Below, one piece after another: positions 36,353-54,388 of a DNA stretch of 64,000 nucleotides. The translations under genes were made by a program, and so were the position numbers. Under the pieces are notes generated by a model. That model saw only the letters and a list, made by a program, of their open reading frames with translations. It did not search any database and was not told the origin of the DNA. Source of the DNA: Synechocystis sp. PCC 6714 (lineage in GTDB: Bacteria > Cyanobacteriota > Cyanobacteriia > Cyanobacteriales > Microcystaceae); contig NZ_CP007542.1 of assembly GCF_000478825.2 (NCBI RefSeq), forward strand, positions 620,001 through 684,000, read 5' to 3'. How positions within the stretch are numbered: the stretch's first letter is position 1; every line of letters starts with the position of its first letter.

Positions 36353-36415
36353 TGTGGAGTGAGTTCGTCGAGTTGGAATTAAATGGGATGGGAAATGGGA
36401 GATGAAAACTAAAAA

Positions 36416-36904: not shown

Positions 36905-37215
36905 GGGCAACTTCCGCAAAGGTATTTTGGATCGGGCAAAAACCAGAGGAATCCTCCTAAGCAAACAGATTCAACTGAATAGCTTTTCGGTGGGTTGACG
37001 CTTCACAGGATGTCGCCGTCGAGGCATTCCGTTACACTAATCCCTACAAATTCAGTTTCTGCTTCATAGCACCAAACTGTACCATAATGCTCTCCATTGT
37101 CCAGAAATACGCTGTATCTGGGGGTAGATCTTTCGGTTTAGCCTTGGTTTTTCCCTCGACAAAAGGTCAATATGGATTAACATCTATTTCCCTATTCGCT
37201 AGCGAAATTTTGTCC

Positions 37216-37953: not shown

Positions 37954-38130
37954 AGATTAATTAACCCACACCCAAAACTGAGCTACGAAGTAAATATAAT
38001 AAATGCAATGAGTGGAATTTAGATAATTGGAATTAAACAACCAAGAGGGAGTTTTGGTGGAAATATAAAAAAGCCCAATCAAACTTAACTGACCAATAAA
38101 TTAATCGCCTCAAAACCTAGCAGTGGTTGC

Positions 38131-39018
38131 ATGACCCAAGAGCTCTACCAACTTTTACTTATCGAAGACGAGTCGGCAACAGTGAAAATGATTCTTGACT
38201 TTCTTGAGTCGTCGGCCGTGTCTCCTTTAGCCGAGCGTTTGCTGGTACAAGTCACTGCGGTATCGGATTTGGATGAAGCGGTAAAAGTTTGCCAAAAACA
38301 AGAATTTGAAATCATTCTACTAGATTTATTCCTGGCTGACATTGAGGGGATTGATGCTTTAGTTCAAGCTCGTAAAATTTTTCCTGAACAGTCAATTATT
38401 GCCTATAGCCAGAGTGAAGATGAACAATTGGTCATCCAATCTTTTCAACATGGTGCCGATGGTTATCTGCGGTTAAAAAATCTAGATTCCTACCTACTTT
38501 ATTACGAACTATTATCAGTTTTACAAAGAAAAATATATCAAAGTAAAAGTGAAAGCCAACGCAGTTTAGCCAGTCAGCAAAAAGAATACCTTGACCTAGA
38601 AACTTTAATTAGTTCCACCACCAGTGTCACAGCCCGGATGTTTGGTTCCGACACCATCAAGGATTCTTTCCCAGAATTGTTCGAGGAATTAAAACAAACC
38701 TATGGCAACTTGCTAGATTTGGCTTTGGAACAACGGGCTTTTAAGGTAGAACACGATTTATCTAGTCGATTGAGAAATCTAGCCGATCGCCTGGGTTTTA
38801 TGAAAGCTAGTCCCCGGGATATCATTCAAATTCATACCACTACCCTACGGGAAAAAAACCGTGATACTAACATAGTCAAATCCCAAGCCTACGTTGCCGA
38901 AGGAAGACTGATGGTATTAGAATTGATGGGCTATTTGGCTAGTTTCTACCGTAAATATTATGTTAGCCTAAACAATCTAAGTATTTCTTCACGATTACCG
39001 CCCAAGGATAGTTCCTAA
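38131..39018 (+). CDS. kaiA3: KaiA3: receiver domain joined to a KaiA-like C-terminal domain
   Basis: A 295-residue protein. Residues 5-130 are a receiver domain (LLIEDES acid pocket, Asp65 in IILLDLFLAD, Ser93, Lys116 in GYLRLKN). After a helical linker, residues about 180-285 resemble the C-terminal KaiC-activating domain of KaiA: FMKASPRDIIQIHTTTLREK and AEGRLMVLELMGYLASFYRK parallel the VPEIIEIHMELID and LTLIDVIAHLCEAYRR stretches of KaiA. This is the architecture of KaiA3, reported in Synechocystis as the partner of KaiB3 and KaiC3 in a second, non-standard oscillator. A kaiB gene follows 285 bases downstream, supporting the assignment. kaiC3 is not in this window. The phosphorylation state, if used, would be set by an unknown kinase. 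Confidence 0.82.
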   Translation: MTQELYQLLLIEDESATVKMILDFLESSAVSPLAERLLVQVTAVSDLDEAVKVCQKQEFEIILLDLFLADIEGIDALVQARKIFPEQSIIAYSQSEDEQLVIQSFQHGADGYLRLKNLDSYLLYYELLSVLQRKIYQSKSESQRSLASQQKEYLDLETLISSTTSVTARMFGSDTIKDSFPELFEELKQTYGNLLDLALEQRAFKVEHDLSSRLRNLADRLGFMKASPRDIIQIHTTTLREKNRDTNIVKSQAYVAEGRLMVLELMGYLASFYRKYYVSLNNLSISSRLPPKDSS

Positions 39019-39303
39019 GTTAGGTAAATAACTAATAAGTCTACTTTGGTTGTTCGGTTGCTAAATATACCAAACTTAACCAAATCTTAATACTAGTTTC
39101 ACCTAATGCCACTCCTTGCTCTGTTCTATCCCAATCACCCCTAGCTCTTTTATTTCTCTTTATTTCCCCTGGATTAACCCCCAATTTAGCATTATTAACA
39201 CAATATTATTTTGGAATTATTTTGGAGTGTTAATTGCCTCTACTTAATCTAGATTTATCTGACCAAATCTGCGGATTGATCTTGTTTGCTATCCCCCAGA
39301 AAT

Positions 39304-39582
39304 ATGAATAAGATTGTATTGAGACTTTATATCACAGGGAATTCTGTCCGTTCTCAACAGGCGATCGCCAACATTTACCGCATTTGTCAGGAAGATTTGG
39401 GAGAGCAGTATCGGGTTGAAATTATTGATGTTTTGGAGCAACCCCAACGGGCGGAGGAAGAGAAAATTATGGTTACTCCTACCCTGATCAAACACTTACC
39501 TCCTCCCTTACAAAGGATTATTGGTGACATGTCCAATACGGAGAAAGTTTTACTGGGGTTGGACATTTTACCTGAAGGTTAA
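39304..39582 (+). CDS. kaiB3: KaiB3 clock protein
   Basis: A 92-residue thioredoxin-like protein. MNKIVLRLYITGNSVRSQQA, IIDVLEQPQRAEEEKIMVTP and PTLIKHLPPPLQRIIGDMSN are KaiB hallmarks, including the segment that refolds during binding to KaiC. It is shorter than KaiB1 (about 102 residues). Its orphan position next to kaiA3 rather than kaiC identifies it as KaiB3. The ATG at 39304 is chosen because the conserved strand begins there; a TTG six codons upstream would extend it, and neither start has a good Shine-Dalgarno sequence. Confidence 0.92.
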   Translation: MNKIVLRLYITGNSVRSQQAIANIYRICQEDLGEQYRVEIIDVLEQPQRAEEEKIMVTPTLIKHLPPPLQRIIGDMSNTEKVLLGLDILPEG

Positions 39583-39718
39583 TTGAGTTAACCCTGGGGA
39601 GAATTGATGCTTGGCCCCTAGGCGGTGGAGCAATATTGAGTAATGATTAAAAATTGGGCCCATCACTTTGCCCATTATCTACTCCGGCGATCGCCAAAGC
39701 TCCAGTTTTCCCCGAATT

Positions 39719-40924
39719 ATGTTGTCCAACTCTGACCAACACCGAGCCGTCCAAGCCCTCTACAACACCTACCCCTTTCCCCCAGAACCCCTGTTACAGG
39801 AACCTCCACCGGGTTACAACTGGCGCTGGCACTGGGCTGCGGCCCATAGTTTTTGTCTGGGAAGGCGACCTTTTAATCAAAAGATTCGTATTTTGGATGC
39901 GGGCTGTGGCACCGGAGTGGGAACGGAATATTTAGTTCACCTCAACCCAGAAGCCGAGGTTCATGCCGTAGATATTAGTGAAGGGGCTTTAGCTGTGGCC
40001 CAGGAACGGTTGCAAAAGTCCGGTGTGGGCTGTGGGCGGGTGCATTTCCACCATTTATCCCTAGAAAACCTTGCCAGTTTGCCGGGGCAATTTGACTACA
40101 TCAATTCCGTTGGCGTACTACACCATCTGCCTGACCCCGTTGCCGGTATTCAAGCGGTGGCGGAAAAATTAGCCCCTGGTGGTTTGTTTCATATTTTTGT
40201 TTACGCGGAAATTGGCCGTTGGGAAATTCAACTGATGCAACAGGCGATCGCCATTCTTCAGGGGGAAAAACGGGGCGATTATCGAGATGGAGTGGCGGTG
40301 GGCCGGGAAATTTTTGCCAGTCTGCCAGACCACAACCGCCTAGTAAAACGAGAAAAAGAACGGTGGTCTTTGGAAAATCATCGGGATGAATCCTTTGCGG
40401 ATATGTATGTCCATCCCCAGGAAACTGATTATAATATCCACACTTTATTTGAACTAACTGACGCCGCTGGGCTAGAATTTTTGGGCTTTTCCAATCCCGA
40501 TTATTGGCAACTTGATCGCCTCCTGGGTAAAGCACCGGATTTAATCGAACGGGCAAAAAATCTAGGGGAGCGGGAGCGGTATCGCTTGATCGAATTATTA
40601 GATCCAGAAATCACCCACTACGAATTTTTCCTCGCCAAACCTCCCATTACAATCAGTGATTGGTCGGACGATAAAACCCTACTCAACGCCAAACCCAATC
40701 TCCATCCTTGTATGACTGGTTGGCCCAGCCGCAGTTTATTTGACTATAACTATCAGCCGTTAGAGTTAACCGAAGAGGAATTTAAATTGCTCCAAGCAGT
40801 GGAAACCCAGACAGAAATTCAAGCAAACGTGGAAAAAATTCTGGCTGACCTAGGCGATCGGGCAATCGACTTAGGATTGGTGCGGAGCTTACAAACTAGG
40901 CAACTACTGACCCTCGGAAATTGA
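39719..40924 (+). CDS. SAM-dependent methyltransferase
   Basis: A 401-residue class I methyltransferase. Motif I is ILDAGCGTGVGTEYL, the acidic residue of motif II is in VHAVDISEGAL, and the motif IV-like stretch is FDYINSVGVLHHLPD. The N-terminal YNTYPFPPEPLLQ phrase and the C-terminal 170 residues (PDYWQLDRLLGKAPDLIERA) are found in a cyanobacterial group whose substrate I do not know. It begins 136 bases after kaiB3 in the same direction. The ATG at 39719 is used; an in-frame ATG at 39668 would add 17 residues. Confidence 0.85.
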   Translation: MLSNSDQHRAVQALYNTYPFPPEPLLQEPPPGYNWRWHWAAAHSFCLGRRPFNQKIRILDAGCGTGVGTEYLVHLNPEAEVHAVDISEGALAVAQERLQKSGVGCGRVHFHHLSLENLASLPGQFDYINSVGVLHHLPDPVAGIQAVAEKLAPGGLFHIFVYAEIGRWEIQLMQQAIAILQGEKRGDYRDGVAVGREIFASLPDHNRLVKREKERWSLENHRDESFADMYVHPQETDYNIHTLFELTDAAGLEFLGFSNPDYWQLDRLLGKAPDLIERAKNLGERERYRLIELLDPEITHYEFFLAKPPITISDWSDDKTLLNAKPNLHPCMTGWPSRSLFDYNYQPLELTEEEFKLLQAVETQTEIQANVEKILADLGDRAIDLGLVRSLQTRQLLTLGN

Positions 40925-41066
40925 TTTAAAAGTCCAAAGTCCCCCAGCATTGCCAGAGCTTTGATTGGTCAACTGAGGAGAAAAACTAAAACTTGGCAGA
41001 CAGGCTCTCAGCTATAGCTAGGGACTAGAATTGGAAAGTCACTCCGGTCACAGAGAGGAGACTGTC

Positions 41067-41708
41067 ATGGTGCAAGCTGTTGATCGTCCTAAGCCATTAC
41101 CTTTAAATATTCCCGAAGAACTAGCACTGCAGGTCACGCCGGCACAATTCGCTATTCTAGCAGCGGAAAATCGAGATTTAAAGCTTGAACGTACAGCAAC
41201 GGGAATATTAATCGTGAATCCCCCCACTGGCGGCGAATCAGGTAATCGTAATTTTAATTTGACTACTCAATTCGGTATCTGGTGTGAAGCTAACGGTCTC
41301 CTCGGCAAGGGATTTGATTCCTCCACTGGGTTTGAATTGCCCAACGGTGCCAATCGATCGCCCGATGCTTCTTGGGTTATGCAGGGGCGCTGGGAATCCC
41401 TCACCCATGAACAAAGGCAAGGATTTATTCCCCTCTGTCCCGATTTTGTAGTGGAATTACGCTCTAAAACCGACAGCATCAAAAAACTGCAGGAAAAAAT
41501 GCAGGAATATATGGAAAATGGTGCTCAGTTGGGCTGGCTGATTGATCCCCAAAATAAACGAGTAGAAATTTATCGTTCCGGACAGCCGGTGGAAGTTCTA
41601 GAAAATCCAGCAATCTATCTGGAGAAGCTGTTTTGCCAGGATTTATCCTTTCTCTGCAAAGAATTTTTCGAGTTTAATCACTATACTCTTTGCCAATTTA
41701 TCTATTGA
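41067..41708 (+). CDS. Uma2-family (DUF820) PD-(D/E)XK nuclease-like protein
   Basis: A 213-residue protein starting MVQAVDRPKPLPLNIPEELA. The Uma2 core is visible: NPPTGGESGNRNFNL, FDSSTGFELPNGANRSPDAS, LCPDFVVELRSKTDSI (the PD...ExK-like active site) and YMENGAQLGWLIDPQNKRVE. Such genes are scattered in dozens through cyanobacterial genomes and their role is unknown. The start is supported by GAGAGGAG at 41053-41060, six bases before the ATG at 41067. It ends 10 bases from the convergent last gene of the Hsp70 operon. Confidence 0.9.
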   Translation: MVQAVDRPKPLPLNIPEELALQVTPAQFAILAAENRDLKLERTATGILIVNPPTGGESGNRNFNLTTQFGIWCEANGLLGKGFDSSTGFELPNGANRSPDASWVMQGRWESLTHEQRQGFIPLCPDFVVELRSKTDSIKKLQEKMQEYMENGAQLGWLIDPQNKRVEIYRSGQPVEVLENPAIYLEKLFCQDLSFLCKEFFEFNHYTLCQFIY

Positions 41709-41718
41709 GATCCGCCAA

Positions 41719-42204
41719 CTATTGAGATAATTTTTTTGAAGTGATTACTTCAATTGGTCTCAAAGTACTGTCGCCAATTTTGAAGCCCTTACGCACAACT
41801 TTGGTAATAGTTTTTTCTTCTAAGTCTTCCCTTACTTCAGTGTCAACAACTTGGCAAAAATTGAAGTCTGGCTTATCACCACCAAATTCTATGAGATTGA
41901 CTTCTCGACGTTCTAATATAGTCAATAATTTACTTTGGATTGTTCCCAGAGATTTGGGTAGACGTTTAATAAATCGAGGATTAGGTTCTGGATTTTCTTC
42001 GAGATAAAGCAATAGAGATTCTAGCATATCGAATAATTCTAGAAATTCTAAAAATAGGGCTTCACTAGCAGAACGATTGGATTTTTCTTCTTCTTTTAGT
42101 AGCTGGGCTAACAATCTTTTTTCCTTGAGTAAGCTTTGTAAATCTGCAAGAACTTTATCTCGATAATCAGGGGTTATTTGAAGCAAATTTTGTTGATTGT
42201 TCAT
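41719..42204 (-). CDS. GrpE-like nucleotide exchange factor, last gene of the Hsp70 operon
   Basis: A 161-residue protein. Residues 5-105 form long helices (LLKEKRLLAQLLKEEEKSNR, EALFLEFLELFDMLESLLLY), and the C-terminal 50 residues (FCQVVDTEVREDLEEKTITK, then VVRKGFKIGDSTLRPIEVIT) match the beta domain of GrpE, where the text normally reads KGYxLGDRVLRPA. GrpE releases ADP from DnaK. This copy is short, lacks the usual acidic N-terminal extension and diverges in sequence, so it is probably dedicated to the two unusual Hsp70s upstream. It starts 8 bases after the second Hsp70 gene, as in a translationally coupled operon. The genome's main grpE will be elsewhere. Confidence 0.8.
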   Translation of the reverse strand: MNNQQNLLQITPDYRDKVLADLQSLLKEKRLLAQLLKEEEKSNRSASEALFLEFLELFDMLESLLLYLEENPEPNPRFIKRLPKSLGTIQSKLLTILERREVNLIEFGGDKPDFNFCQVVDTEVREDLEEKTITKVVRKGFKIGDSTLRPIEVITSKKLSQ

Positions 42205-42212
42205 AGATTTAT

Positions 42213-44342
42213 TTAGAGTAAATTACTGATGCTTTTATTAAAATCTGCCATCACCTTAGCATGGAATTCATCTAGATTTTCATTTTCAATTTCTTCAATA
42301 AGCTTAAGTTCTGGCGTTGGTTTATCAAGTTCAGAGATATCGTAACGTTTAAAGCGTAGAATGGGAGGTAATGCTGGCAAAAGATAGTCGGCAACTAATC
42401 GATCTTCATTATTTTTTACGAGTTTATTTCGTGCCGCAGTTAAAATTTTAGGATGACGTTTTTTTTCTTTCATCCTTGCTTTAAAAGCCTTTTCGATTTC
42501 ATCTTTAGAAGCGGCAGGGGAAACACCGAGAATATCGTAGGGATTGTTAGACATGGAATTATATTTTCTAGAAGATAAAATTTTGAGTTTTTTGAGCTTT
42601 TCAAGAGCCACTTTTCTTAGTTCTTCTCTAATCCGTCCATTATCACCTATCATTAAGTTAGTTGCCTGAATGATTTCCCCTGCCAATTGATTTACTTCTT
42701 CATATTCCTTGATTGTAAATTCCCTCTCTTGATTGAATTGATCAATTAATTCTTCCACTTCTTTTGCAATAGCAGTATCTTGATCGCCCCGCCCAAGGGC
42801 ACAACTTACCCTCACAGACTCATCATTACGAAGATGAGCCGTCAACTGCAGCGCCTCGTTTTGCTCGTCAATTTCTGCTATTAAGACAATTTCTGTTCCC
42901 TTGGGGTAGTGTTTATCAAGAGCCAAATAAATTTGTCCAATTGACTCATCAATAAATGGGGAATTTGGCTGATTTTCAACCTCATCAGGAGAAAATAACT
43001 TAAGATTAATAAATCGCTGACCATCAGCTTTTGTTTTAATTATTACTGATGTCTTTAATGGCAAGTACTCTCCTTTTTGAATTAAAAGAAAGCGCGGATC
43101 ATCTGGAAATTCAATATAACAATTTCGAGAAACAGTAAGATTCTTGTCCACTAAACCAGCAGCGACAATAGCAGCTCCTTCTGCAATCGCATAAATGGGT
43201 CGAGGATGGACAACCACCTTATCGTAACCAAAGACCTGTTTCAAGTTTTGCTGAACAAAAGGAATTAATGACGATCCACCCACCATTAGGATAACGTCAA
43301 TATCGTCTTGAGTTATGCCTGCATCCTCAATTGCCTGCTGGCAAATTTTTATTGTCCGGTCCACTAAAGGTAGAATTAACTGCTCAAACTCTGAGCGCGT
43401 AATAAAAGGCATAATAAAAATTAGCGAACCAAACTCATCTATTAAAGGCTCTGCAATACAAATTTGTGTTTCTGTTCGATGACTTAAGTCAATTTTGACT
43501 TGTTCAGCGACCAGCTTAAAACTGTCTATCAATCTCTTTTGTTTTCTACTAGGCATTCTGGCGATTAAAGCATCAATATCATCTAAATCTTCTTCTTGAG
43601 CAACTTTTTGCTTAACTAATTCGATGAGCTTATTGTCAATATCATCTCCCCCTAACCATAAGTCTCCTGCTTTTCCTAATTCACTAAACCAATCCCCGAT
43701 AGCACTAATCACAGAGGCATCAAAAGTTCCGCCCCCCAAATCATAGACAAGAATAGTTTGACAGTCGTCAGAGCCAGGTTTAAATCCGTAGGAGATGGCA
43801 GCGGCAATTGGCTCATACAGTAACTCTTTAACTTCCAATCCTGCTCGTTTGGCGGCATTCTGCATGGCATATCGCTGTTGATCGTTTAAATAGGCCGGAA
43901 TTGCAATAACTGCTTCTGTTATCTTTGTCTTCTGCCCTTGGTTTTCTTGATAAGTCTCGGCATTTTTAACAACTTGCTTAAGAATTTGTGCGGCAATATC
44001 CTCGGGTTCGTATTCTTTCCCCCCCAGGATCACAACTAAACCATCTTCCTTTCCTTGGCTAGGGGCTTTAATCTTGTAACTCAAGTGCTGAGTTTGCCAT
44101 TGGACAATAGGATCGCTATTGTCTCGCCCCATAATGCGCTTAATGGAATCAATGACATTCTCAGGGTCTTGCTTAAGTTGGTAGTAAGCTTTCTCTCCAA
44201 CAATGATCTCCCCATTATCCAGTGCCACAACGGAACGAGTAAGTCCCTTACCTGCCTCATCAGTTACTATCTCGACTTGAGCGAATTTAAAAGCCGCAAC
44301 ACAGTTGTTCAAGCCAAAATCAATGCCAATCGTATTTACCAT
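42213..44342 (-). CDS. Hsp70-like ATPase with altered phosphate loop and C-terminal J-like domain (Hsp70-B)
   Basis: 709 residues. The nucleotide-binding domain spans about 1-380 and keeps VYDLGGGTFDAS, AYLNDQQRYAMQNAAKRAGL and MVGGSSLIPFVQ, but the first phosphate loop reads GIDFGLNNC instead of the GIDLGTTNS seen in its neighbour, losing both threonines. A shortened substrate-binding region follows, then, at about 600-660, a J-like domain (NNPYDILGVSPAASKDEIEK). At the place of the HPD tripeptide it has HPK (about residues 630-632). The sequence is otherwise very like the Hsp70 at 47427-49637, so one arose by duplication. The ATG at 44342 follows TTGAGG nine bases earlier and 11 bases after the preceding stop. 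Predicted cytosolic and possibly ATPase-impaired. Confidence 0.88.
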   Translation of the reverse strand: MVNTIGIDFGLNNCVAAFKFAQVEIVTDEAGKGLTRSVVALDNGEIIVGEKAYYQLKQDPENVIDSIKRIMGRDNSDPIVQWQTQHLSYKIKAPSQGKEDGLVVILGGKEYEPEDIAAQILKQVVKNAETYQENQGQKTKITEAVIAIPAYLNDQQRYAMQNAAKRAGLEVKELLYEPIAAAISYGFKPGSDDCQTILVYDLGGGTFDASVISAIGDWFSELGKAGDLWLGGDDIDNKLIELVKQKVAQEEDLDDIDALIARMPSRKQKRLIDSFKLVAEQVKIDLSHRTETQICIAEPLIDEFGSLIFIMPFITRSEFEQLILPLVDRTIKICQQAIEDAGITQDDIDVILMVGGSSLIPFVQQNLKQVFGYDKVVVHPRPIYAIAEGAAIVAAGLVDKNLTVSRNCYIEFPDDPRFLLIQKGEYLPLKTSVIIKTKADGQRFINLKLFSPDEVENQPNSPFIDESIGQIYLALDKHYPKGTEIVLIAEIDEQNEALQLTAHLRNDESVRVSCALGRGDQDTAIAKEVEELIDQFNQEREFTIKEYEEVNQLAGEIIQATNLMIGDNGRIREELRKVALEKLKKLKILSSRKYNSMSNNPYDILGVSPAASKDEIEKAFKARMKEKKRHPKILTAARNKLVKNNEDRLVADYLLPALPPILRFKRYDISELDKPTPELKLIEEIENENLDEFHAKVMADFNKSISNLL

Positions 44343-44353
44343 ATATTCAAACC

Positions 44354-46873
44354 TCAATAAGGAATCCGTAAAGCTCGATAAAATTCTCGAAAGGCAGGTT
44401 CATGGGGAGCGATTTCATAAGCCCATTTTCCCAATTGCCGAATTCCATCAGCATCCATAGAGCGATTTTCAGCCCCCTTTATTGCTATATCTATGAATAA
44501 TTCTGCCGCAGCAAAACGAATTTTAGGATTAGATGAATTTTTGGCAAAATTGACCAATCCTTCAACATTTCCTGCTTTGATTAATTTGTCAAATTTCTGA
44601 GCATCTTGATAATCTTTTACTTTTTGACATAATTCCAAGACTACGGGATTATGAGGATCTATTTTCTTAAGTTGATTGAAATTTTCTAATGCGGAGTCAT
44701 TGCTAATCTTATCCTTTGCCCATTGTTGTCGAATTGCTTCTGCTTTATATTCTGCTAAATAACTTCTAGAATTTTGGCTTTGCAGTAAATCATACCAAAA
44801 CTCAGCAAATTCAAGATGTTCGCTAAAATCATCAATTTTTCTGCGTTGGGCCGAGCAAAGTTGATCAATATTTTCTCGCCATTCTGAGTTAGATTGGATG
44901 CATGATTTAATATTATTTAATGACTTGATAGATCGCCGCCAATCAAATTGCTGAAGATGATAACGCCCTTCATGATAGTTAACAAAGTTAGAGCTATAAA
45001 TTTCAGCCGGGGACTGAGGGGGATATATCGGTTTAAGATGAATGGCACGAAGAATATGATTGTCCAAGCAAGCCGCTACAGCAAAACCCCAGTCGCTATA
45101 CAATGCACTCAGTTGCTCATTAGGAAAATTAAGGTTTGAAAAGAGATGAGAATATTGATAATAACAACCAGGTAAAATTGTTAGCTGATTAAATTTCATC
45201 CCTCGCAAATTAGTTTCTTGAAGTGTATTTAACACCATCAATTCTAGTCTTAGACCATCCTTCAATCCCTCAACTCCTATTGGATCTTTTTGTTTGAATT
45301 TTTCTATTAAATCGTCTACCAACTTAACTAACTTACTCTGGAGAGTTTCAAAGTTAATATTTTCTGTATCCATCCAAACAATATCATGCAATTTTGGATT
45401 ATGTTCCAAGTTAGCCAATAATGTAAACCACAGACAGATAAACTTAGCAAATAAAGAGAGATCTGCTTCATCATTTTGCGTAATTTGCTCGTGCAATGCT
45501 ATGGTCAGATTATGAAGTGTCGTTATACTAGGGTTTTCCAACCATTCCTTTTCTGACAAATCAATTAGTTCTTTGCTTCCTTTTTTATTCCAGTGCTCAG
45601 CTATCAGCCATGGCTCGATATGTTGAGCCATGTTCCGTTCAACAATACTGTCACTACCAAATTTTTGTAAAAATAATTGGCTTTTATTTAACGCTGACTG
45701 ATGTTCAAGATTTTTAAGATCAACCTCAATATCTTGGATACTAATAAGTCGATCTCTTTTGATTAAATCTTTAAGAATATTTAATTGCTCTTTGATTTCA
45801 GGATTCTGTATTTTACGCCATTCACGGCTAGCTTGTTGCCATTCCTTCAAGCTGGCATAAATAAATCCTTTCAAATAAGCTGAGGTGTCGCAATTTAGCT
45901 GGGCTAAGCATAAAAATGCCTCTTGATATTTTTGCGTTTTAACATAAATTGTAGCAAGCTTTAATTGTATATTACTTATGTTAAAAGATTGGTCAATAGA
46001 TAAAACATCTTCAACAACGGCCGAATAAACTATTTTGGCTTCTTCAAAGTTATTCTTTTTTTCTAGGGTGATAGCTTGTCGAACTTTAGCTTGTACATCG
46101 ATAATTTTGGTTAACTTTTGTAAAAGATTTTTGCCATCGGATCTTCTGAATTCTAAAAGTGAATTTTTACATAATTCTACAGACGCTTCCAATTGATTGT
46201 TAGTTGCCAATAAACGAGCTTTTTTTAGGTTATTTTCGTATTTTTCTTCCCTTTCAATTGAAGCATTATAATCGGAAATTCTTGCATCTAATTGAGATGT
46301 AGGTATAATAGCTTTTGCTTCATTAATTATGACAAGAGCTTTTTTAAAATAAAGTTGGCTGGCTAATTGTTCCGCATTAATTAATTTTTCTTGAAACTGT
46401 TCGTGCTTTTGAATGGTATTGTTTAAATTGTTAATTGATCTTTCTAAGGTTTCGTCATAAACAATTTGTTCAGCTTGCTGATATAAACTTTGTGCTTTGT
46501 TTAGATTTGGTAAACTTTGTTGGTCACAAGGATTATTTTTGGCTATTTCAACTAGTTGATCAGCTGATCTAATTAATTCTTTCGCCCGATTAATATCTTG
46601 TTGCCATTGCTGGTGCCATGTGCTCAATAGCTCAAGTTTGTTTCCTAAGAATTGATTTCTGATCCATTTTTCTAATCCTGAAGGACTAGATTCCCAAATC
46701 GATAAAGTTGACTTGGCCAATCTAGTGGCTTGTACTATTTTTTTTCTTCTGACAAGATAATCAATATCTTGCAAAAATTTGTTTGTTTGTCTACATTTTT
46801 CAATGAGCCTAAAAACTTGCACCCCAAAAATAAACTGGGTTAGTCGGTCAACGAATTGAGTGATAATATTCAT
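44354..46873 (-). CDS. Large TPR-like helical protein of the Hsp70 operon
   Basis: About 839 residues, almost wholly helical, with no enzyme motif I recognise. The first 20 residues are hydrophobic (NIITQFVDRLTQFIFGVQVF) and may touch the membrane. Repeats of TPR character occur throughout: AKSTLSIWESSPSGLEKWIR, AEQLASQLYFKKALVIINEA, AKIVYSAVVEDVLSID, TQKYQEAFLCLAQLN and LENFNQLKKIDPHNPVVLEL. It starts by an ATGA overlap with the stop of the LysM gene (ATG at 46873), and ends 11 bases before the second Hsp70 gene. TPR proteins often present Hsp70 or its clients; a scaffold between the membrane LysM protein and the Hsp70s is my inference. Codon use is AT-rich and there are no HIP1 sites in the gene. 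Confidence 0.8.
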   Translation of the reverse strand: MNIITQFVDRLTQFIFGVQVFRLIEKCRQTNKFLQDIDYLVRRKKIVQATRLAKSTLSIWESSPSGLEKWIRNQFLGNKLELLSTWHQQWQQDINRAKELIRSADQLVEIAKNNPCDQQSLPNLNKAQSLYQQAEQIVYDETLERSINNLNNTIQKHEQFQEKLINAEQLASQLYFKKALVIINEAKAIIPTSQLDARISDYNASIEREEKYENNLKKARLLATNNQLEASVELCKNSLLEFRRSDGKNLLQKLTKIIDVQAKVRQAITLEKKNNFEEAKIVYSAVVEDVLSIDQSFNISNIQLKLATIYVKTQKYQEAFLCLAQLNCDTSAYLKGFIYASLKEWQQASREWRKIQNPEIKEQLNILKDLIKRDRLISIQDIEVDLKNLEHQSALNKSQLFLQKFGSDSIVERNMAQHIEPWLIAEHWNKKGSKELIDLSEKEWLENPSITTLHNLTIALHEQITQNDEADLSLFAKFICLWFTLLANLEHNPKLHDIVWMDTENINFETLQSKLVKLVDDLIEKFKQKDPIGVEGLKDGLRLELMVLNTLQETNLRGMKFNQLTILPGCYYQYSHLFSNLNFPNEQLSALYSDWGFAVAACLDNHILRAIHLKPIYPPQSPAEIYSSNFVNYHEGRYHLQQFDWRRSIKSLNNIKSCIQSNSEWRENIDQLCSAQRRKIDDFSEHLEFAEFWYDLLQSQNSRSYLAEYKAEAIRQQWAKDKISNDSALENFNQLKKIDPHNPVVLELCQKVKDYQDAQKFDKLIKAGNVEGLVNFAKNSSNPKIRFAAAELFIDIAIKGAENRSMDADGIRQLGKWAYEIAPHEPAFREFYRALRIPY

Positions 46874-47403
46874 AAGCATTCACTATTAGGATTAGGAATC
46901 AAAAGCTTATCGCCAATTTCAAGAAAATCTTCTCTTCCTTCAAGACTTGGATTTTTTTGAACAATCAATGTCTGTTGTTCAGCATTGCCATAGAAGCGCA
47001 TGGCAAGTAAAGATAAGGAATCTCCTCCCCTAACGACATACTCAAATCCTTGATTACAAGTTTGGATTGAAGAGGGTTTGGTCGTAGCCTGAATTGTTTC
47101 CGTTTGGGCGATTTTATCTTGAAGTTGGCCGACTTTATTTTGAAGTTGACTAACTGTGTTTTGTGTTGGCCAGTAAACTCCAATACCCCCCAGAACAATT
47201 CCCAAGGCTAGAAAGGCGATCGCCGTTAGGAGTAACCAGGAAGGAACACCTGAACTTTTATTGATGACGGAACTCTGGGGACTAGGAGCAACGGGTAAAT
47301 CCATTAGTCCACGGATCAATGTCAAATCCGTTTCACAGTTTGGGCAAATGTCCTCTACCACTCCAGGGCGATCACAGACGGGACAGGGAATTTTAACAGT
47401 CAT
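46870..47403 (-). CDS. Zinc-ribbon, transmembrane, LysM protein
   Basis: A 177-residue protein in four parts: an N-terminal zinc ribbon (Cys7, Cys10, Cys20, Cys23 in CPVC and CPNC), one transmembrane helix (55-78, LLLTAIAFLALGIVLGGIG), a short coiled coil (SQLQNKVGQLQDKIAQ) and a C-terminal LysM domain (121-171, YVVRGGDSLSLLAMRFYGNA, ending GDKLLIPNP). With the zinc ribbon inside, the LysM would face the periplasm and could bind peptidoglycan; that orientation is inference. It is the second gene of the Hsp70 operon: 23 bases after the first Hsp70 and overlapping the TPR gene by 4 bases. Zinc ribbons of this kind often mediate protein contact with chaperone partners. Confidence 0.85.
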   Translation of the reverse strand: MTVKIPCPVCDRPGVVEDICPNCETDLTLIRGLMDLPVAPSPQSSVINKSSGVPSWLLLTAIAFLALGIVLGGIGVYWPTQNTVSQLQNKVGQLQDKIAQTETIQATTKPSSIQTCNQGFEYVVRGGDSLSLLAMRFYGNAEQQTLIVQKNPSLEGREDFLEIGDKLLIPNPNSECL

Positions 47404-47426
47404 GAATATTCTAAATATGGTTGAGC

Positions 47427-49637
47427 TTATTTTGTTAACCCAGTGGCAACAGTGCCAGTAGCTATTTCTTGATCAAGATACTTTTCGACATCAGGAGATA
47501 GTTGTTGTAACAAACTTTGAACTTCTTGCATATCATTATGTTCAAGTGCATAAAGCATTCGAGCAAATTTATCGGTCATGGCATTAGCCGCAGTTGGATT
47601 AATTTGAAGAGCACGATTAATTGAAACTCGGCATAGCAAAATTAGGTTAACCAGGTCTGGGAGATTTTCGTCTTCCCGTTTTGCGTCCTCCACAAACTTT
47701 TGTAGCCCAGATAAATTATCCTTATCAATGGCATCTTTTAAATTTGCCACTATGTTTTTAATCCTTACCTGTTGCTCTTGGGGAATTGCAGAGTGACAAT
47801 GCTCGATTACAAATTCAAAACGTGAGAGGAAGTAGTAAGCCAAACCATGATCTTCAGAGATACAGGTACGAAACTCTTTAAGTTTTTCATTGGCTACCCT
47901 TCTACGATCTTCCAAGACTCGTCCGTCACTTCCCATCATCGAATTACTAGCTTGAACGATTTCGCCAGCCAATTCATATACTTGCTCAACCCCCCGAGTA
48001 GTCAACTGACCTTTTCTGTTTAACTGGTCAATTAATTCTTCTACTTCTTTGGCGATCGCCGTATCTTGGCCACCTCTTCCAAATGAACAACTTACTCTCA
48101 CAGATTCATCATTACGAAGATGGGCAGTCATCTGCACCGCCTCGTTTTGCTCGTCAATTTCCGATAAAACAGTAACTTCTGTCCCTTTAGAGTAATGTTT
48201 GTCAAGGGCTAACCACATTTGTCCAATCGGCTCATCGACGGATGTGTGATCTAGCTGATTTCTGACTTCATCTGGGGAGAAAAATTTGAAATGAATTAAC
48301 CGCTGGCCATCAGCTTCAATTTTAAAAATATGGGATTGTTTAACTGGTAAATCTTCGCCTTTTTTGATTAAAACAAAACGTGGATCATCGGTAAGCTTAA
48401 TGCAGTAATTACGGGAAACGGTTAAGCTTTTTTCTACTAAACCAGCGGCAACAATACCGGCACCTTCAGCAACTGCATACATTGGTCGGGGATGGACAAC
48501 TACTTTATCTTTTCCAAACGCTTCTTGGACTTTTTGCTGAACAACGGGAATTTGGGAAGATCCCCCCACCATTAAAACAATATCAATTCCGCTTTCAGAC
48601 TCGTTGGCATCTTCGATCGCCTGTTGACAAATCTTGATACTTCGCTCAACTAAGGGCAGAATCATCGGCTCGAATTCTGAACGAGTTATAGCGCATTTAA
48701 TAAAAAATAATGCACCGAATTCATCTATTAAAGGCTCTGTAATTTCAATGTTTGCTTCTGTACGATTACTTAAATCAATTTTTGCTTGTTCAGCTGCTAG
48801 CTTAAAACTACCTATCAACCTTTTTTGTTTTATACTAGGCATCTTACCAATCAAAGCATTAATATCATCCAAATCTTCTTCTTGAGCTACTTTTTGCTTA
48901 ACCAACTCGATGAGCTTGTTATCAATATCATCCCCGCCTAGCCATAAGTCCCCGGCTTTTCCTAATTCACTAAACCAATCCCCAGCCGCACTAATCACAG
49001 ATGAGTCAAATGTTCCACCACCGAAGTCATAAACTAAGATAGTTTTTACATCATCTGAACCAGGCTTAAAGCCGTGGGAGATGGCAGCGGCTGTTGGTTC
49101 TGATAATAGTTCCTTAACCTTTAGCCCTGCCCGTTTAGCTGCATTCTGAGTGGCATAGCGCTGTTTATCATTGAAATAAGCTGGAATGGTAATAACTGCT
49201 TCTGTTATTTTCCCCTTCTGTTTTTGACTTTCTTGATTTTCCTGATAAACCTGAGCATTTTTGACAACTTGCTTGAGAATTTTCGCTGAAATATCTTCGG
49301 GTTCGTACTCCTTCCCCCCTAATATGACGACAAGACTGTCCTCTGTGCCCTGACTGGATTGTTTGATTTTATAACTTAAATGTTCACATTGCTTCTGAAC
49401 AATAGGTTCACCGAAACCACGCCCCATAATTCGCTTAATCGAACCAATAACATTTTCTGGGTCTTGCTTAAGCTGATAGTAGGCTTTGTGTCCAACTATG
49501 GTCTCACCATTGTCAAGTCCCACTACTGAGCGGGTTAGACTTTTCCCACCTTCGTCAGTTACAACTTCGACTTGGGCAAATTTAAAGGCCCCTACCGAAT
49601 TAGTTGTTCCCAAATCGATGCCTATGCAGTTGCCCAT
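47427..49637 (-). CDS. Hsp70-like ATPase with helical C-terminal extension (Hsp70-A), first gene of operon
   Basis: 736 residues. The nucleotide-binding domain carries the complete phosphate-1 loop GIDLGTTNSVGAF, VYDFGGGTFDSS, AYFNDKQRYATQNAAKRAGL with EPTAAAI after it, and VLMVGGSSQIPVVQ, so ATP binding should be intact. The region after about 390 is a divergent substrate-binding domain (RNYCIKLTDDPRFVLIKKGE, DEQNEAVQMTAHLRND), much less like DnaK than the ATPase part. From about 600 the protein is a helical tail (LQKFVEDAKREDENLPDLVN; FARMLYALEHNDMQEVQSLL) with no J domain and no EEVD-like end. Over the first 550 residues it is strikingly similar to Hsp70-B downstream. It differs from the main DnaK proteins in the C-terminal half. 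No signal peptide. Confidence 0.9.
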   Translation of the reverse strand: MGNCIGIDLGTTNSVGAFKFAQVEVVTDEGGKSLTRSVVGLDNGETIVGHKAYYQLKQDPENVIGSIKRIMGRGFGEPIVQKQCEHLSYKIKQSSQGTEDSLVVILGGKEYEPEDISAKILKQVVKNAQVYQENQESQKQKGKITEAVITIPAYFNDKQRYATQNAAKRAGLKVKELLSEPTAAAISHGFKPGSDDVKTILVYDFGGGTFDSSVISAAGDWFSELGKAGDLWLGGDDIDNKLIELVKQKVAQEEDLDDINALIGKMPSIKQKRLIGSFKLAAEQAKIDLSNRTEANIEITEPLIDEFGALFFIKCAITRSEFEPMILPLVERSIKICQQAIEDANESESGIDIVLMVGGSSQIPVVQQKVQEAFGKDKVVVHPRPMYAVAEGAGIVAAGLVEKSLTVSRNYCIKLTDDPRFVLIKKGEDLPVKQSHIFKIEADGQRLIHFKFFSPDEVRNQLDHTSVDEPIGQMWLALDKHYSKGTEVTVLSEIDEQNEAVQMTAHLRNDESVRVSCSFGRGGQDTAIAKEVEELIDQLNRKGQLTTRGVEQVYELAGEIVQASNSMMGSDGRVLEDRRRVANEKLKEFRTCISEDHGLAYYFLSRFEFVIEHCHSAIPQEQQVRIKNIVANLKDAIDKDNLSGLQKFVEDAKREDENLPDLVNLILLCRVSINRALQINPTAANAMTDKFARMLYALEHNDMQEVQSLLQQLSPDVEKYLDQEIATGTVATGLTK

Positions 49638-49715
49638 AACTAAATACCAATATCAACTATAGTAGAAGTGCTTTTCGTGCAATCGTTCCATAATGTTAGC
49701 AACTGAATCAGCTAG
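49638..49715 (-). promoter_or_regulatory. Possible promoter of the Hsp70 operon
   Basis: On the minus strand, TTGCAC and TATAGT are 15 bases apart, with TATAGT about 20-25 bases before the first Hsp70 ATG. The spacing is shorter than ideal, and AACATTATG upstream is another candidate. No CIRCE inverted repeat (TTAGCACTC-N9-GAGTGCTAA) is present, so the operon does not look HrcA-controlled. The sequence TATAGTTGATA also recalls the end of the dispersed repeat at 206-299. Confidence 0.3.
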
Positions 49716-49915
49716 AGGATCATAGTATAAAAAACTTTACATTCTTAGCTTGATGAAGCGGACATCGTATCGACCAGATGTATGTAAAATGCCCGCAATG
49801 ACTCCTTACAGCGTAATCGTTGTAAGAAATGAATGAACGACTCTTTATGTCACGAGGTCCTGACATTTTTAGTACCCAACCACTACTTTGATTGGATGGG
49901 ATATAAAAGACCGAA

Positions 49916-50548
49916 CTATAAAACCCCTTTGGAACTGGGAATGGTATCAGCCCGACGGGGGTCAACTTCGATCGCCATGCGCATGGCCCGGGCAAAGGCT
50001 TTGAACGTGGCTTCGATAATGTGATGGGAATTAATACCGTCAAGCTGGCGGATATGGAGGGTCATTTGACTGTGGTTAACGACGGCCACAAAGAATTCTC
50101 GCACCAGTTGGGTGTCGTAGGTACCTACCCTTTCCGTGGGAATTTGCAGACCATAGCTGAGGTGGGGTCGCCCGGAAAAGTCCAATGACACCTGTACCAG
50201 GGCTTCGTCCAAAGGAGCAATGAAATGGCCAAAACGATTAATACCCCGGCGATCGCCCAGGGCTTCGGCCAAGGCTTGACCAAGGGTAATGCCCACATCT
50301 TCGTTGGTGTGGTGATCGTCAATTTCAATATCCCCGGTGGCGTTCACTTCCAAATCAATCAGACCGTGGGAGGCAATCTGATGCAACATATGATCTAAAA
50401 ACGGAACCCCAGTGGCCACATGGCACAGACCATTACCCATCAAATTCAAACTCACCCGCACATCAGTTTCTTTGGTGACTCGATGCACCGCCGCGGCACG
50501 GGGAGAAAAGTTGGGGACAAGCAAGGATGGGGTGGAGGACTCCGGCAT
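49916..50548 (-). CDS. hisB: Imidazoleglycerol-phosphate dehydratase
   Basis: Histidine biosynthesis step seven, dehydration of imidazole glycerol phosphate to imidazole acetol phosphate. The 210-residue single-function form has the metal-binding motifs [30 protein letters not shown] and [15 protein letters not shown]. It lacks the phosphatase domain of enterobacterial HisB, as usual in cyanobacteria. The start is the ATG at 50548 ([10 protein letters not shown]); a TTG two codons upstream is less likely. A 278-base gap separates it from the Hsp70 operon; I see nothing else there. Confidence 0.95.
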
Positions 50549-50742
50549 GGGCAACAGTTTATGTGAATTGAGGAGGAGACAGACTAGGTAGAATAGGTCT
50601 GCACGGGGAAAGGTACTTCTGTCGAAATTTCAGAATAAATTTCCCCCATTACCATGCTAATCCACCGGGAACCACCGTTGAGCAATCAGATAAATAACAT
50701 TCAAGGGGAATTTGGGGCTATTCACCATCTCTCCCCATCGGT

Positions 50743-51921
50743 TCAGGCGTCGACTGGTAGTGCCAAACTTTCTGCACAGAGCCACAGAGCTCTGGGGACG
50801 TGGAAACAGCCTTTCCATTTACCACCCTTAAGATTGAGCAACACTTCCCCCCGCCGGTTGAGGTAGCCAAACCATTCCCCATACTCCGGATCAGCGAAAT
50901 GACTCCAGGCATAGTCGTGGACCCGCTCAAACCATTGCCAGCATTGCTCCCGCCCGGTAATTTGATGTCCCTTAGCTAGAGCAACGAGGGTTTCTAGGTG
51001 TACCCACCAGAGTTTTTGGTCCCATTCCAATTGTTGGGGAGGGTGACCCTGGCGATCAAGAAAATAAAAGATACCGCCAAATTCTTCATCCCAGGCATAT
51101 TCCAAAGTGTTCAAAACCACTTCAATGGCTTGCTCTAACAACTGGCGATCGCCGTTCCGTTGGGCAATGTCCATCATGAACCACATGGCTTCGATGCCAT
51201 GGCCGGGGTTAAGCAAACGCCCTTCAAAACTATCAACAAACTCCCCCGTGGGGGTCACGGCTTCCCGCATTAGCCCCAGTTCCGGATCAAGGAAATCCGT
51301 CATCACCTCCTTAACGGTTTGGGTTAACACCTCTTCCACGGTGGCAGGGGGTAATAACCATTCCATTTCCAGGGTGAGGTTAGCTAAAATCATTGGCACC
51401 GCTAGGGATTTTAGAGGTCGGGTGCCGGGGTAGGATTTTTCGTATTGGCCCTTAGGGTTATGCTGACGGCGTAGGACGTTATTGTAGGCCTGTAGAGCAA
51501 TGGTTTTAGCTTCTTCTTCTGCACTGGCCAGGGCATATTGACTAAAGGCCATGGCGGCGAAACAATCAGAAAAGACATTATAGGGTTGTTTAAGGGGCTT
51601 TCCTGCCTGATCTAAGGCAAAGTACCAATTACCATCTTTATCCCGGCCGTAGCGGGCCAAAAAATCAGCACCGTGGCGGGCAATTTCTAACCATTGGGGT
51701 CTTGATTCCAAACGGTTGTAAAAAACAGCAAACTGCCACACCTGACGGTTTTGTAACCAAATGAATTTATCGGTGTCAAAAACTTGTCCTTTACGGTCTA
51801 AACAGGTGAAATACCCTCCCCCTTGGTGATCAAGGGAATATTTTTCCCAAAAGGGTAACACGTCCTCGTATAAAGCCTCTTGGTATCGTTGGGCTAGCTC
51901 CTGACGGCGATGGGCAATCAT
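50743..51921 (-). CDS. N-acylglucosamine 2-epimerase (AGE family)
   Basis: A 392-residue alpha-toroid enzyme interconverting N-acetylglucosamine and N-acetylmannosamine. Family blocks: [54 protein letters not shown] with the catalytic histidine, and [14 protein letters not shown] with the second. Length and blocks match the Synechocystis N-acylglucosamine 2-epimerase that has been used in sialic acid synthesis. Nothing in the sequence suggests damage. It is transcribed alone, with hisB 194 bases downstream. Confidence 0.93.
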
Positions 51922-52185
51922 AGACTTAAAATTTTGGGATTAATGTTAGCGTTGGAGTCCTGGGAAAAATGGCTTGCTTTTCAGACAACAACACAACATA
52001 ACATGAGTAGGCAAAAATACGGTTTCGACCTGGGGGAGTTAGAACAGTTTTTTTTCGCTGCAGGTAACTGTGAAAATTTGTTAAAAATCCTTACGTTGTC
52101 AATAAAAAGTGGGATTAATTTCGGCATTTAAACCATCATTAAATAAAGGAGATATTTTTCCCTTCCTCCGCCCAGTATTCCTGCC

Positions 52186-52998
52186 ATGATTTGCCCTAAC
52201 CGCCCCTTTTTGTTTGCTCTAATGGCGATCGCCACCGCTGGTTTATCCCTGTTAGCCCCGGGTCCAGTGGTAATTTTGCCCGTTGAAGCGGCCCTAACTC
52301 CGCCATTTATTGCCCAGGAACAGAATTCTGCCGCCGCCAGAGAACAAAAATTACTAGAGGGCTTCGACGAACTGGAGAGTGGTTCTCCCCTCAAGGCGAT
52401 CGCCATTTTCACCCAGGTGATCGACACCGACAATGGCAATGCCGATGCCTACAATTTGCGGGGGGTGGCCTATATGGTGATTGAACAATATTCCCAAGCA
52501 TTGGCGGATTTTAACCAGGCCATTGCCCTCAGCCCCAACGATCCGGCCATCTATTTCAATCGGGCTAACGTCCATGGGGTGATGAATAACTACCAAGGGG
52601 CGATCGATGATTGTGGCCAGGGTATTTTGCTTGATCCCCAGGATGCGGATCTTTTTATCTGTCGGGGCCAGGCCCAGTTGGGGTTAGAACAAACTAATCA
52701 GGCCATTGCCGATTTTGACCAGGCCATAGAAATCAATCCCCGTTCTGAGGAAGCCCATTATTTTCGGGGTATGGCCCATGCCATGGTGGGTAATTATGAA
52801 CGAGCTTTAGCTGACCTAGGCCGCACCATCCGCCTCAATCCCTACAATGCGGATGCGTTTATTCTCCGGGCTGGTATTCGATCAGAGCAGGGGGAAGTGG
52901 AGGAATCCCTGGACGATATGATCCATGCCATTAATTTGCTCGATCGCCAGGGACAGGGGGAAAGGGCAACGGAAATTCGGCAATTGTTGGGTTATTGA
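52186..52998 (+). CDS. Exported TPR protein
   Basis: A 270-residue protein with a signal peptide (FLFALMAIATAGLSLLAPGP, cleavage near EAA or IAQ). The mature part is six TPR units of the canonical 34-residue type, e.g. AYNLRGVAYMVIEQYSQALA, AIYFNRANVHGVMNNYQGAI, DLFICRGQAQLGLEQTNQAI, AHYFRGMAHAMVGNYERALA. It is a protein-interaction scaffold, probably periplasmic; the partner is unknown. The upstream 264 bases hold no other gene I can support. The next gene downstream is argJ, 148 bases away. Confidence 0.87.
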   Translation: MICPNRPFLFALMAIATAGLSLLAPGPVVILPVEAALTPPFIAQEQNSAAAREQKLLEGFDELESGSPLKAIAIFTQVIDTDNGNADAYNLRGVAYMVIEQYSQALADFNQAIALSPNDPAIYFNRANVHGVMNNYQGAIDDCGQGILLDPQDADLFICRGQAQLGLEQTNQAIADFDQAIEINPRSEEAHYFRGMAHAMVGNYERALADLGRTIRLNPYNADAFILRAGIRSEQGEVEESLDDMIHAINLLDRQGQGERATEIRQLLGY

Positions 52999-53146
52999 CG
53001 GATTTTATTGATCCCATGGTGGGATCGAGCGGAAAAAATTAGTGGAAAATCAGCAATTCCTGACGGGGGTTAAACTGCCGATAATTAACTCGAAGCAGAA
53101 CTGCTATGATTGACCTCTGAATTCGAGCATATGGCAGGCTTTTCCT

Positions 53147-54388
53147 ATGGCTGACTGGCAGGTAATTGAGGGCAATATCACCGCCCCCAAAGGGTTTAAA
53201 GCAGCGGGCATCACAGCAGGTCTAAAACCTTCCGGTTCCCCTGACTTAAGCCTAATTTACTCGGAAACCGAGGCTATCGCCGCCGGTGTATTTACCACCA
53301 GTCAAGTGCGGGCAGCCTGTGTGGATTATTGTCGCCAACGGTTACAGGCCAGGGCCAGCGCTAGGGCCATTTTGGTTAACTCTGGCCAAGCCAATGCGGG
53401 TACCGGCAAACAGGGCTGGGACGATGCGGTGGAGTCAGCCCAACTGCTAGCCCAAGGGTTAAACATTTCCCCCGAAAGTATTCTGCTCGCTTCCACTGGG
53501 GTAATTGGTCAGCGGATCAAAATGGAGCGGTTACGCCAGGGCATCTCCCCGTTGATTCAGTCCCTTTCCCCCACCGGCGGAGATAGTGCGGCCAGAGCGA
53601 TTATGACCACCGATCTAGTCCCCAAGGCGATCGCCCTAGAAACGGAAATTGACGGTCGCCCGGTGAGAATGGGGGGCATTGCCAAGGGTTCCGGCATGAT
53701 TCACCCCAACATGGCCACCATGCTGGCCTTTGTCACCTGTGATGCGGCGGTTTCCACTGCTCTTTGGCAACAAATGCTGAGCCGGGCCACCCAAAAAACC
53801 TTTAACCAAGTGACGGTGGATGGGGACACCAGCACCAATGACAGCCTATTTGCTTTGGCCAATGGGGAATCCCGCACCGCCGCCATTACGGAAATGGGCC
53901 CCAACGCCGAAAAGTTAGAAGCCATGCTCACCGCTGTTTGTCAACATTTGGCCAAGGCGATCGCCAGGGATGGGGAAGGGGCCACCTGTCTGATGGAAAT
54001 TCAGGTTACTGGGGCCCCCGATGACCAAGCCGCTAGGGCTGTGGCCAGAACCATTGCTGGTTCTTCCTTGGTTAAATCCGCTGTCTTTGGTCGGGATCCC
54101 AACTGGGGACGCATTGCGGGGGCAGCGGGCCGGGCTGGTGTTAAATTTGACCAAAATAATTTGCAAATTAAGCTGGGGGACTACATCCTCATGGACCAGG
54201 GACAACCCCTGGAATTTGATCGCCCTGGAGCCAGCAATTATCTTAAACGGGCGGCGGCCGGTGCTTATTTACAGGAAGACACGGTCTTAATTAAGGTTGA
54301 TCTGGGCACTGGTTCGGGCCAGGGTACTGCCTGGGGCTGTGATCTTAGCTACGATTATGTACGGATCAATGCGGATTACACGACCTGA
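53147..54388 (+). CDS. argJ: Bifunctional glutamate N-acetyltransferase / amino-acid acetyltransferase
   Basis: Arginine biosynthesis, recycling the acetyl group from N-acetylornithine to glutamate. The 413-residue precursor cuts itself at an Ala-Thr bond; the motif HPNMATMLAF is present, with Thr191 as nucleophile. Other family blocks are VFTTSQVRAACVDYCR, ILVNSGQANAGTG, FGRDPNWGRIAGA and the C-terminal LGTGSGQGTAWGCDLSYDYV. Length is normal. The ATG at 53147 fits the family. Confidence 0.95.
   Translation: MADWQVIEGNITAPKGFKAAGITAGLKPSGSPDLSLIYSETEAIAAGVFTTSQVRAACVDYCRQRLQARASARAILVNSGQANAGTGKQGWDDAVESAQLLAQGLNISPESILLASTGVIGQRIKMERLRQGISPLIQSLSPTGGDSAARAIMTTDLVPKAIALETEIDGRPVRMGGIAKGSGMIHPNMATMLAFVTCDAAVSTALWQQMLSRATQKTFNQVTVDGDTSTNDSLFALANGESRTAAITEMGPNAEKLEAMLTAVCQHLAKAIARDGEGATCLMEIQVTGAPDDQAARAVARTIAGSSLVKSAVFGRDPNWGRIAGAAGRAGVKFDQNNLQIKLGDYILMDQGQPLEFDRPGASNYLKRAAAGAYLQEDTVLIKVDLGTGSGQGTAWGCDLSYDYVRINADYTT

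Follow-up and report, generated by a model that had tools for sequence, protein, structure and literature searches.

The five-gene cassette and its conserved order

A 64-kb stretch of the Synechocystis sp. PCC 6714 genome (positions 620,001 to 684,000 of contig NZ_CP007542.1; hereafter the window, numbered from its first base) contains a compact cassette of five genes built around an Hsp70 chaperone. All five lie on the minus strand between 49637 and 41719, with intergenic gaps of 23, -4, 11 and 8 bases, and their coordinates and order are exactly those given in a preliminary description of this DNA. The first gene (47427-49637) encodes Hsp70-A, a 736-residue protein that ends in ATGLTK and represents the conserved ATPase of the cassette. 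The second (46870-47403) encodes a 177-residue candidate membrane anchor with an N-terminal CxxC...CxxC zinc ribbon, a transmembrane (TM)-like segment at about residues 58-76 and a LysM-like C terminus. The third (44354-46873), which begins with an ATG at 46873 and shares 4 bases with the anchor gene, encodes an 839-residue TPR-like helical protein, a putative scaffold. The fourth (42213-44342) encodes Hsp70-B, a 709-residue duplicate of Hsp70-A fused to a J-like tail (42216-42590) that lacks the HPD motif of J-domains and has an HPK nearby. The fifth (41719-42204) encodes a 161-residue GrpE-like nucleotide exchange factor.

The two Hsp70 proteins match the Pfam Hsp70 model at 315.8 and 308.9 bits (cut-off 20.6), and the GrpE-like protein matches GrpE (PF01025) at 63.7 bits, above the gathering cut-off of 25.8. 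The remaining assignments fall under their cut-offs: DnaJ (PF00226) scores 22.2 bits on the Hsp70-B tail against a cut-off of 27.8, with a second cassette-type score of 24.3 also under it; LysM (PF01476) scores 18.1 bits on the anchor against a gathering cut-off of 20.9, with the LysM pattern visible in the alignment of many family members; and TPR models match the 839-residue protein only at sub-threshold scores. Pfam recognised no effector domain among the five proteins. Elsewhere, the 3.74-Mb host genome encodes three canonical DnaKs and seven other J-domains, and a second, stronger GrpE match adjoins one DnaK gene, away from the cassette.

We surveyed the cassette in two overlapping samples. 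Querying 386 genomes of the phylum with only the TPR protein identified 29 genomes including the host, and thus 28 others. The J-like protein, run against a set of 84,980 species with one genome apiece, yielded 126 relatives. We retained the best 80, among which 51 (L066-L116) bear cyanobacterial record titles, with carriers that include Planktothrix, Arthrospira, Nostoc, Anabaena, Calothrix, Microcystis, Pseudanabaena and Crocosphaera. Forty-five of the 51 loci contain all five genes on one strand in the order Hsp70, anchor, TPR, J-like, GrpE, and the remaining six sit at contig ends. With gene starts set at the first ATG, GTG or TTG, the median gaps across the 45 complete loci are -4, -4, 14 and 2 bp; the Hsp70 frame is split into two open reading frames (ORFs) in L072, L086 and L092, as is the TPR frame in L084. 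The same order was found in 22 of the 28 genomes from the TPR search. Among the other six, L063 has all five genes with the anchor gene first, L056 and L061 are cut by contig ends, and L062, L064 and L065 are decayed or fragmentary. The J-like gene and the GrpE-like gene are each present in 27 of the 28 loci, all of which were found via the TPR protein alone. The co-occurrence of the five genes exceeds chance. A search for this order across cyanobacteria had been proposed in the preliminary description, and its outcome supports the claim made there that Hsp70, J-like module, GrpE-like protein, TPR scaffold and membrane/wall anchor form one operon-like unit.

Two more distant versions were read among the loci outside the cyanobacterial set (L117-L145); the remaining 27 score 23-33 bits with the J-like model. 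L118 (Dysgonamonadaceae) contains Hsp70, zinc-ribbon/TM, TPR and J-like genes and the start of a GrpE gene, and L120 (Oscillochloris, presumably of another phylum) has the order TPR, J-like, GrpE-like, Hsp70. The TPR protein of L118 has relatives in 0 of 197 other genomes of its phylum, so spread beyond the cyanobacteria is not established. Within the cyanobacteria, the decayed cassettes in L062 and L064 hold gene fragments, consistent with loss as well as gain. In four loci of the Pseudanabaena group (L092, L098, L102 and L114) a small gene pair, which we take to be toxin-antitoxin-like DUF433/DUF5615, seems to lie inside the cassette between the TPR and J-like genes, where the gap is about 700 bp.

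Hsp70 ATP sites, J-contact residues and the J-like domain

We compared 47 Hsp70-A rows, six of them from TPR-search genomes, omitting ORFs of at most 700 residues (L067, L072, L086, L092 and L113); L115 is unreadable at most sites. Residues are numbered after DnaK. The ATP site is preserved: D8, T11, T12, K70, E171, D194 and T199 are retained in all 47 rows and T173 in 46. All 47 carry the residues that define an Hsp70 superfamily ATPase, and the Hsp70-B copies of the host, L044 and L051 do not. R167, on the other hand, is retained in none of the 47 rows (E in 42, I in 3, V in 1 and K in 1), nor is N170, and the R151 position is occupied by K in 5. Host Hsp70-A has E at the R167-equivalent position. 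The VLLLD linker is absent from it, as from all 12 aligned cassette Hsp70 rows of the host's phylum and from L118. In DnaK, R167 is the residue perturbed by the HPD aspartate, and DnaJ together with substrate fails to stimulate an R167D variant effectively (PMC7289447). Because the residues that answer the HPD are gone, the cassette Hsp70 would be expected to respond poorly to ordinary DnaJ proteins.

Within the aligned parts, Hsp70-A shares 29-33% identity with the three host DnaKs, and it falls short of the NCBIfam cut-offs for the DnaK equivalogs (308.7 versus 648 and 295.9 versus 822.55) and for HscA (265.6 versus 620 and 256.6 versus 708.55). Its C terminus follows the pattern TG[LI]x[RK] in 46 of 47 rows when read by eye, two of them with one extra residue, and in 39 of 47 by a stricter pattern. 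This may be a docking tail whose concept, though not its sequence, recalls the eukaryotic EEVD.

The loss on the Hsp70 side is matched by a loss on the J side. HPD is absent from all 78 J-like rows of the two overlapping samples, whereas six of the host genome's seven other J-domains have it. The lone exception there (L171, C1:2448062-2448247) lies inside a 725-residue open frame that is perhaps the division protein Ftn2/ARC6. An AlphaFold model of the J-like domain has four helices in J order with a short II-III loop, and J-domains make up most of the 50 Foldseek hits listed against the PDB, which lends modest support to a predicted four-helix J fold. In viral contigs we found five short matches to the J-like pattern, spanning 38-47 query residues. 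The cassette had been credited with every role of an Hsp70 cycle. An Hsp70, a J-like module and a GrpE-like protein are indeed present; a standard cycle is not established, since the J-like module has no HPD.

These residue losses bear on whether the cassette could simply be an ordinary accessory DnaK system, driven by HPD-type DnaJ proteins of the host and carrying its J-like protein as an evolutionary remnant. Six host J-domains with HPD could serve such a system, and the ATP site of Hsp70-A is complete. We nonetheless consider this account very improbable: the HPD-contact arginine is lost from all 47 Hsp70-A rows, and a remnant would not be expected to hold invariant positions, as the J-like alignment does, or to be retained in 27 of 28 loci.

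The fourth protein of most loci is a J-like protein without Hsp70, about 116-233 residues long (489-512 in L085, L100 and L101), and the tail of host Hsp70-B is kin to it. An Hsp70 fused to the J-like domain occurs in five loci only, the host, L044, L051, L079 and L115, and these fusions suggest contact between the Hsp70 and J-like partners. In a phylogenetic tree, host Hsp70-B is sister to host Hsp70-A (support 100/100) and the Hsp70-B of L044 joins the group of its own Hsp70-A (98/93); the fused copies of L051 and L115 fall in an unresolved group of close relatives, and that of L079 lies beside the Pseudanabaena group (94/85). Repeated duplication and fusion would be the simplest reading of this pattern, although gene conversion of one old fusion may also account for it. 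The label of a two-Hsp70 operon is accordingly not general, as the second Hsp70 of the host duplicates the first. Three of the four readable fused copies have a changed ATP site: T11L, T12N and T173I in the host; D8C, K70R, D194N and others in L044; and K70R, R71N and G198N in L051. The site is unreadable in the L115 copy. As host Hsp70-B is a duplicate with such a site, the two ATPases once attributed to the cassette are doubtful, and Hsp70-B is probably a weak or dead ATPase that is nevertheless conserved, with a pairwise ratio of non-synonymous to synonymous substitution rates (dN/dS) of about 0.07 between it and host Hsp70-A.

A putative envelope-tethered machine and its genomic setting

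In each of 47 anchor proteins examined, the CxxC...CxxC zinc ribbon is joined by a segment that hydropathy marks as TM-like, and many carry the LysM pattern at the C terminus. Similar features appear elsewhere in the cassettes: LysM-like modules stand at the N terminus of the TPR proteins of L094, L098 and L102, and TM-like segments are found by hydropathy in the J-like proteins of L085, L100, L101 and L110. In three of these (L085, L100 and L101) the J-like domain is followed by the TM-like segment and then by a SPOR domain, recognised by Pfam in L085 and by eye in L100 and L101; we propose that such proteins might attach the machine to the wall by an additional route. Apart from two short strands, the TPR protein is all-helical in its AlphaFold model (mean pLDDT 87.8, pTM 0.51), which matches assorted TPR scaffolds in the PDB with low TM-scores.

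We favour, with moderate confidence, the interpretation that the cassette encodes a self-contained Hsp70 machine that is tethered to membrane and wall and insulated from the DnaJ network. In this model, the products of the five genes would form one machine seated on the cytosolic side of the cytoplasmic membrane and tethered to peptidoglycan. Hsp70-A would be the working ATPase and the GrpE-like protein would swap its nucleotide; the TPR protein would serve as scaffold and the zinc-ribbon/TM/LysM protein as anchor. The J-like protein, represented in the host by the Hsp70-B tail, would not trigger hydrolysis through an HPD and is probably a docking or positioning subunit, to which an extra Hsp70 copy became fused in the host. 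The client, at a guess, is most likely an envelope-associated protein complex. More tentatively, the cassette may represent an Hsp70 ATPase cycle that runs without any HPD-type J-domain, in which the sender HPD and the receiver arginine and linker have been lost and replaced, at a wall-tethered membrane site, by a TPR scaffold, a C-terminal TGL(T)R tail, a J-like docking subunit and repeated fusions to a degenerate Hsp70.

Several observations weigh against this interpretation. The gene set is patchy, being present in 29 of 386 genomes of the phylum, and it is not uniformly compact: the TPR-J gap exceeds 300 bp in 5 of the 45 complete loci and the J-GrpE gap is 1,419 bp in L071. The TM calls come from hydropathy alone, and because the same scan flags 6 of 52 Hsp70 rows it has false positives and single calls are unsafe. 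LysM is under the Pfam cut-off in the host anchor and in the L094 TPR protein, and the anchor ORFs of L106 and L107, at 74 residues, are too short for it. All Foldseek E-values for the J-like model are at least 0.078, and respiratory-complex subunits from Tetrahymena rank first and second among its hits. The Oscillochloris Hsp70 (L120) retains R167 and a linker-like stretch; as its cassette has no HPD, the HPD may have been lost before the arginine. Among the fused Hsp70s, the L079 copy has an intact ATP site. Finally, the dN/dS of about 0.07 between host Hsp70-A and Hsp70-B averages both copies at a dS near saturation, and the B branch is the longer one (0.43 versus 0.085).

The position of the cassette in the host chromosome points to its arrival by insertion. 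In two of four congeners, matches to the Uma2 and hisB genes lie 28 bp apart; in the host they are separated by an 8.25-kb stretch (41668-49916) that is missing in those two. The other two congeners give no information at this site, and the TPR search found no match in any of the four. The coding part of the cassette (41719-49637) has a GC content of 37.6% compared to 47.2% for the whole window, and the lowest value for any 8-kb segment of the window is 37.55%. Insertion between hisB and an earlier Uma2 would be the simplest reading, with deletion from both congeners as a less parsimonious alternative. As Uma2 DNA stands beside hisB in two cassette-free congeners, Uma2 is older than the insertion. 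On the same finding we reject Uma2 as part or sign of a defence island, which it had earlier been taken to indicate; the cassette itself may still have a defence role. The Uma2 protein matches the PADLOC model PDC-S03 at 7.8e-8. Its frame in the host overruns the end of congener similarity by about 41 bases (41668-41708), so the inserted stretch supplies its last codons.

Scans for regulatory elements and for one candidate function gave little. A CIRCE heat-shock element has no match in the whole window with up to 3 mismatches allowed; promoter-like sites occur at chance level (24 found versus 23.6 expected); and Rfam has no match across 36000-54000. A link to gas vesicles was also considered: PF00741 has no match in the host genome, but control genomes have none either, so nothing follows.

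No single neighbouring gene is shared by over 10 of the 51 loci. In ten loci the GrpE-like gene is followed on the same strand, at a median distance of 186 bp, by an apparent signal peptidase I gene. Among 85 flank proteins examined from 411 flank ORFs, of which 145 had been selected, Peptidase_S26, found in 8, is the only Pfam family common to more than three. This neighbour may reflect shared synteny or a functional link. A functional link would fit a protein-translocation motor of the mitochondrial PAM type that draws a polypeptide across or into the membrane; by analogy, beside a tethered Hsp70, the HPD-less J-like protein would act as Pam16, the GrpE-like protein as Mge1 and the TPR protein as the equivalent of Tim44. 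The cassette has no channel gene, however, and no counterpart of Pam18, the HPD-type J-protein of PAM, and the peptidase may be no more than shared synteny of related genomes. We regard such a motor as improbable.

The flanks and the distribution also bear on a further possibility, that the cassette is a conflict module directed against phage or stress, which would derive from the HSP70/GrpE/DnaJ/TPR set found with GAP1-N2 systems, sense membrane or wall damage and switch state via the Hsp70 cycle. The patchy, apparently transferable distribution, with insertion at one site and decay in L062 and L064, fits gain and loss, and single flank proteins resemble defence genes. PADLOC matched 97 families on the 85 flank proteins, with strong matches to a type II methyltransferase (3.1e-136), PD-T4-6 (1.3e-97) and pVip (3.1e-88) in one member each; among the matches listed (25 of the 97 families), OrfB/Cas12f-type models occur in three members and helicase and MzaA in one each. 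These matches were counted without a control set and make no statement on enrichment either way. Downstream of the distant cassette form in L063 (8005-11830), genes of kinase-like, PP2C and vWA type, encoded on the other strand, resemble another theme of GAP1-N2 conflict systems (PMC7159879). Together with the likeness of the cassette to the HSP70/GrpE theme of the same source, these features leave a conflict role some probability. The cassette proteins themselves argue otherwise. PADLOC-DB 2.0.0 returned no family for any of the five at E <= 0.1, Pfam found no GTPase, GAP1 or FNIII among them, and the absence of a more widely recurring neighbour and of TPR-protein relatives in phage or plasmid records also stands against such a role. 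DO-GTPase, GAP1 and FNIII are likewise not among the Pfam families common to at least two of the 85 flank proteins, and GAP1-M is absent from the host genome in a search whose control matched in 1 of 14 genomes. We therefore view a conflict module as unlikely, though less so than the translocation motor.

Comparison with known chaperone systems

HPD-to-arginine signalling is taken as the common core of Hsp70 action. A cassette that lacks both signalling ends, yet keeps an ATP site and a GrpE-like protein, would be a natural test of an Hsp70 working without them. It also suggests that cyanobacteria have a private, transferable chaperone machine dedicated to the envelope, in well-studied genera such as Nostoc, Anabaena, Microcystis, Planktothrix and Arthrospira. 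In the open-licence literature searched we found no description of the cassette, in agreement with the earlier statement that no system of this composition was known. Four published systems share parts of its design.

The mitochondrial PAM import motor, compared by description, resembles the cassette in combining a tethered Hsp70, an exchange factor, an HPD-less J-like subunit and a scaffold; it additionally has the HPD-type Pam18 and a channel (PMC5773037). HscA and HscC, like the cassette Hsp70, are specialised bacterial Hsp70s with a sporadic distribution and private partners. However, both are inferred not to use GrpE (PMC8215388; HscC compared by description), whereas a GrpE-like protein and a partner lacking HPD are both encoded within the cassette. 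Within the cyanobacteria, the DnaK1/DnaJ3/GrpE set that acts in type IV pilus function and polysaccharide secretion is, like the putative machine described here, an Hsp70 system dedicated to the envelope. There, dnaK1 adjoins the sole grpE of its genome (PMC9239167), whereas the host genome has a grpE-dnaK pair away from the cassette.

The nearest printed analogue is the HSP70/GrpE/DnaJ/TPR theme of GAP1-N2 systems (eLife 2020, PMC7159879). In the relevant part of that account, this theme is found mainly in actinobacteria and firmicutes, with GAP1-N2 systems overall also present in planctomycetes, verrucomicrobia and chloroflexi. These systems carry DO-GTPase, GAP1 and FNIII proteins, none of which Pfam detects among the five cassette proteins, and neither a J-like protein lacking HPD nor a zinc-ribbon/TM/LysM anchor figures in the same part of the account. 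The likeness lies in the chaperone core. GAP1-N2 systems, which are predicted to sit near the membrane, include an HSP70 with GrpE, in some a second HSP70 that lacks the peptide-binding domain, and FNIII proteins with DnaJ or TPR fusions (PMC7159879). The cassette similarly combines an Hsp70 with its own GrpE, in some loci an extra Hsp70, DnaJ-like and TPR partners and a predicted place at the membrane.

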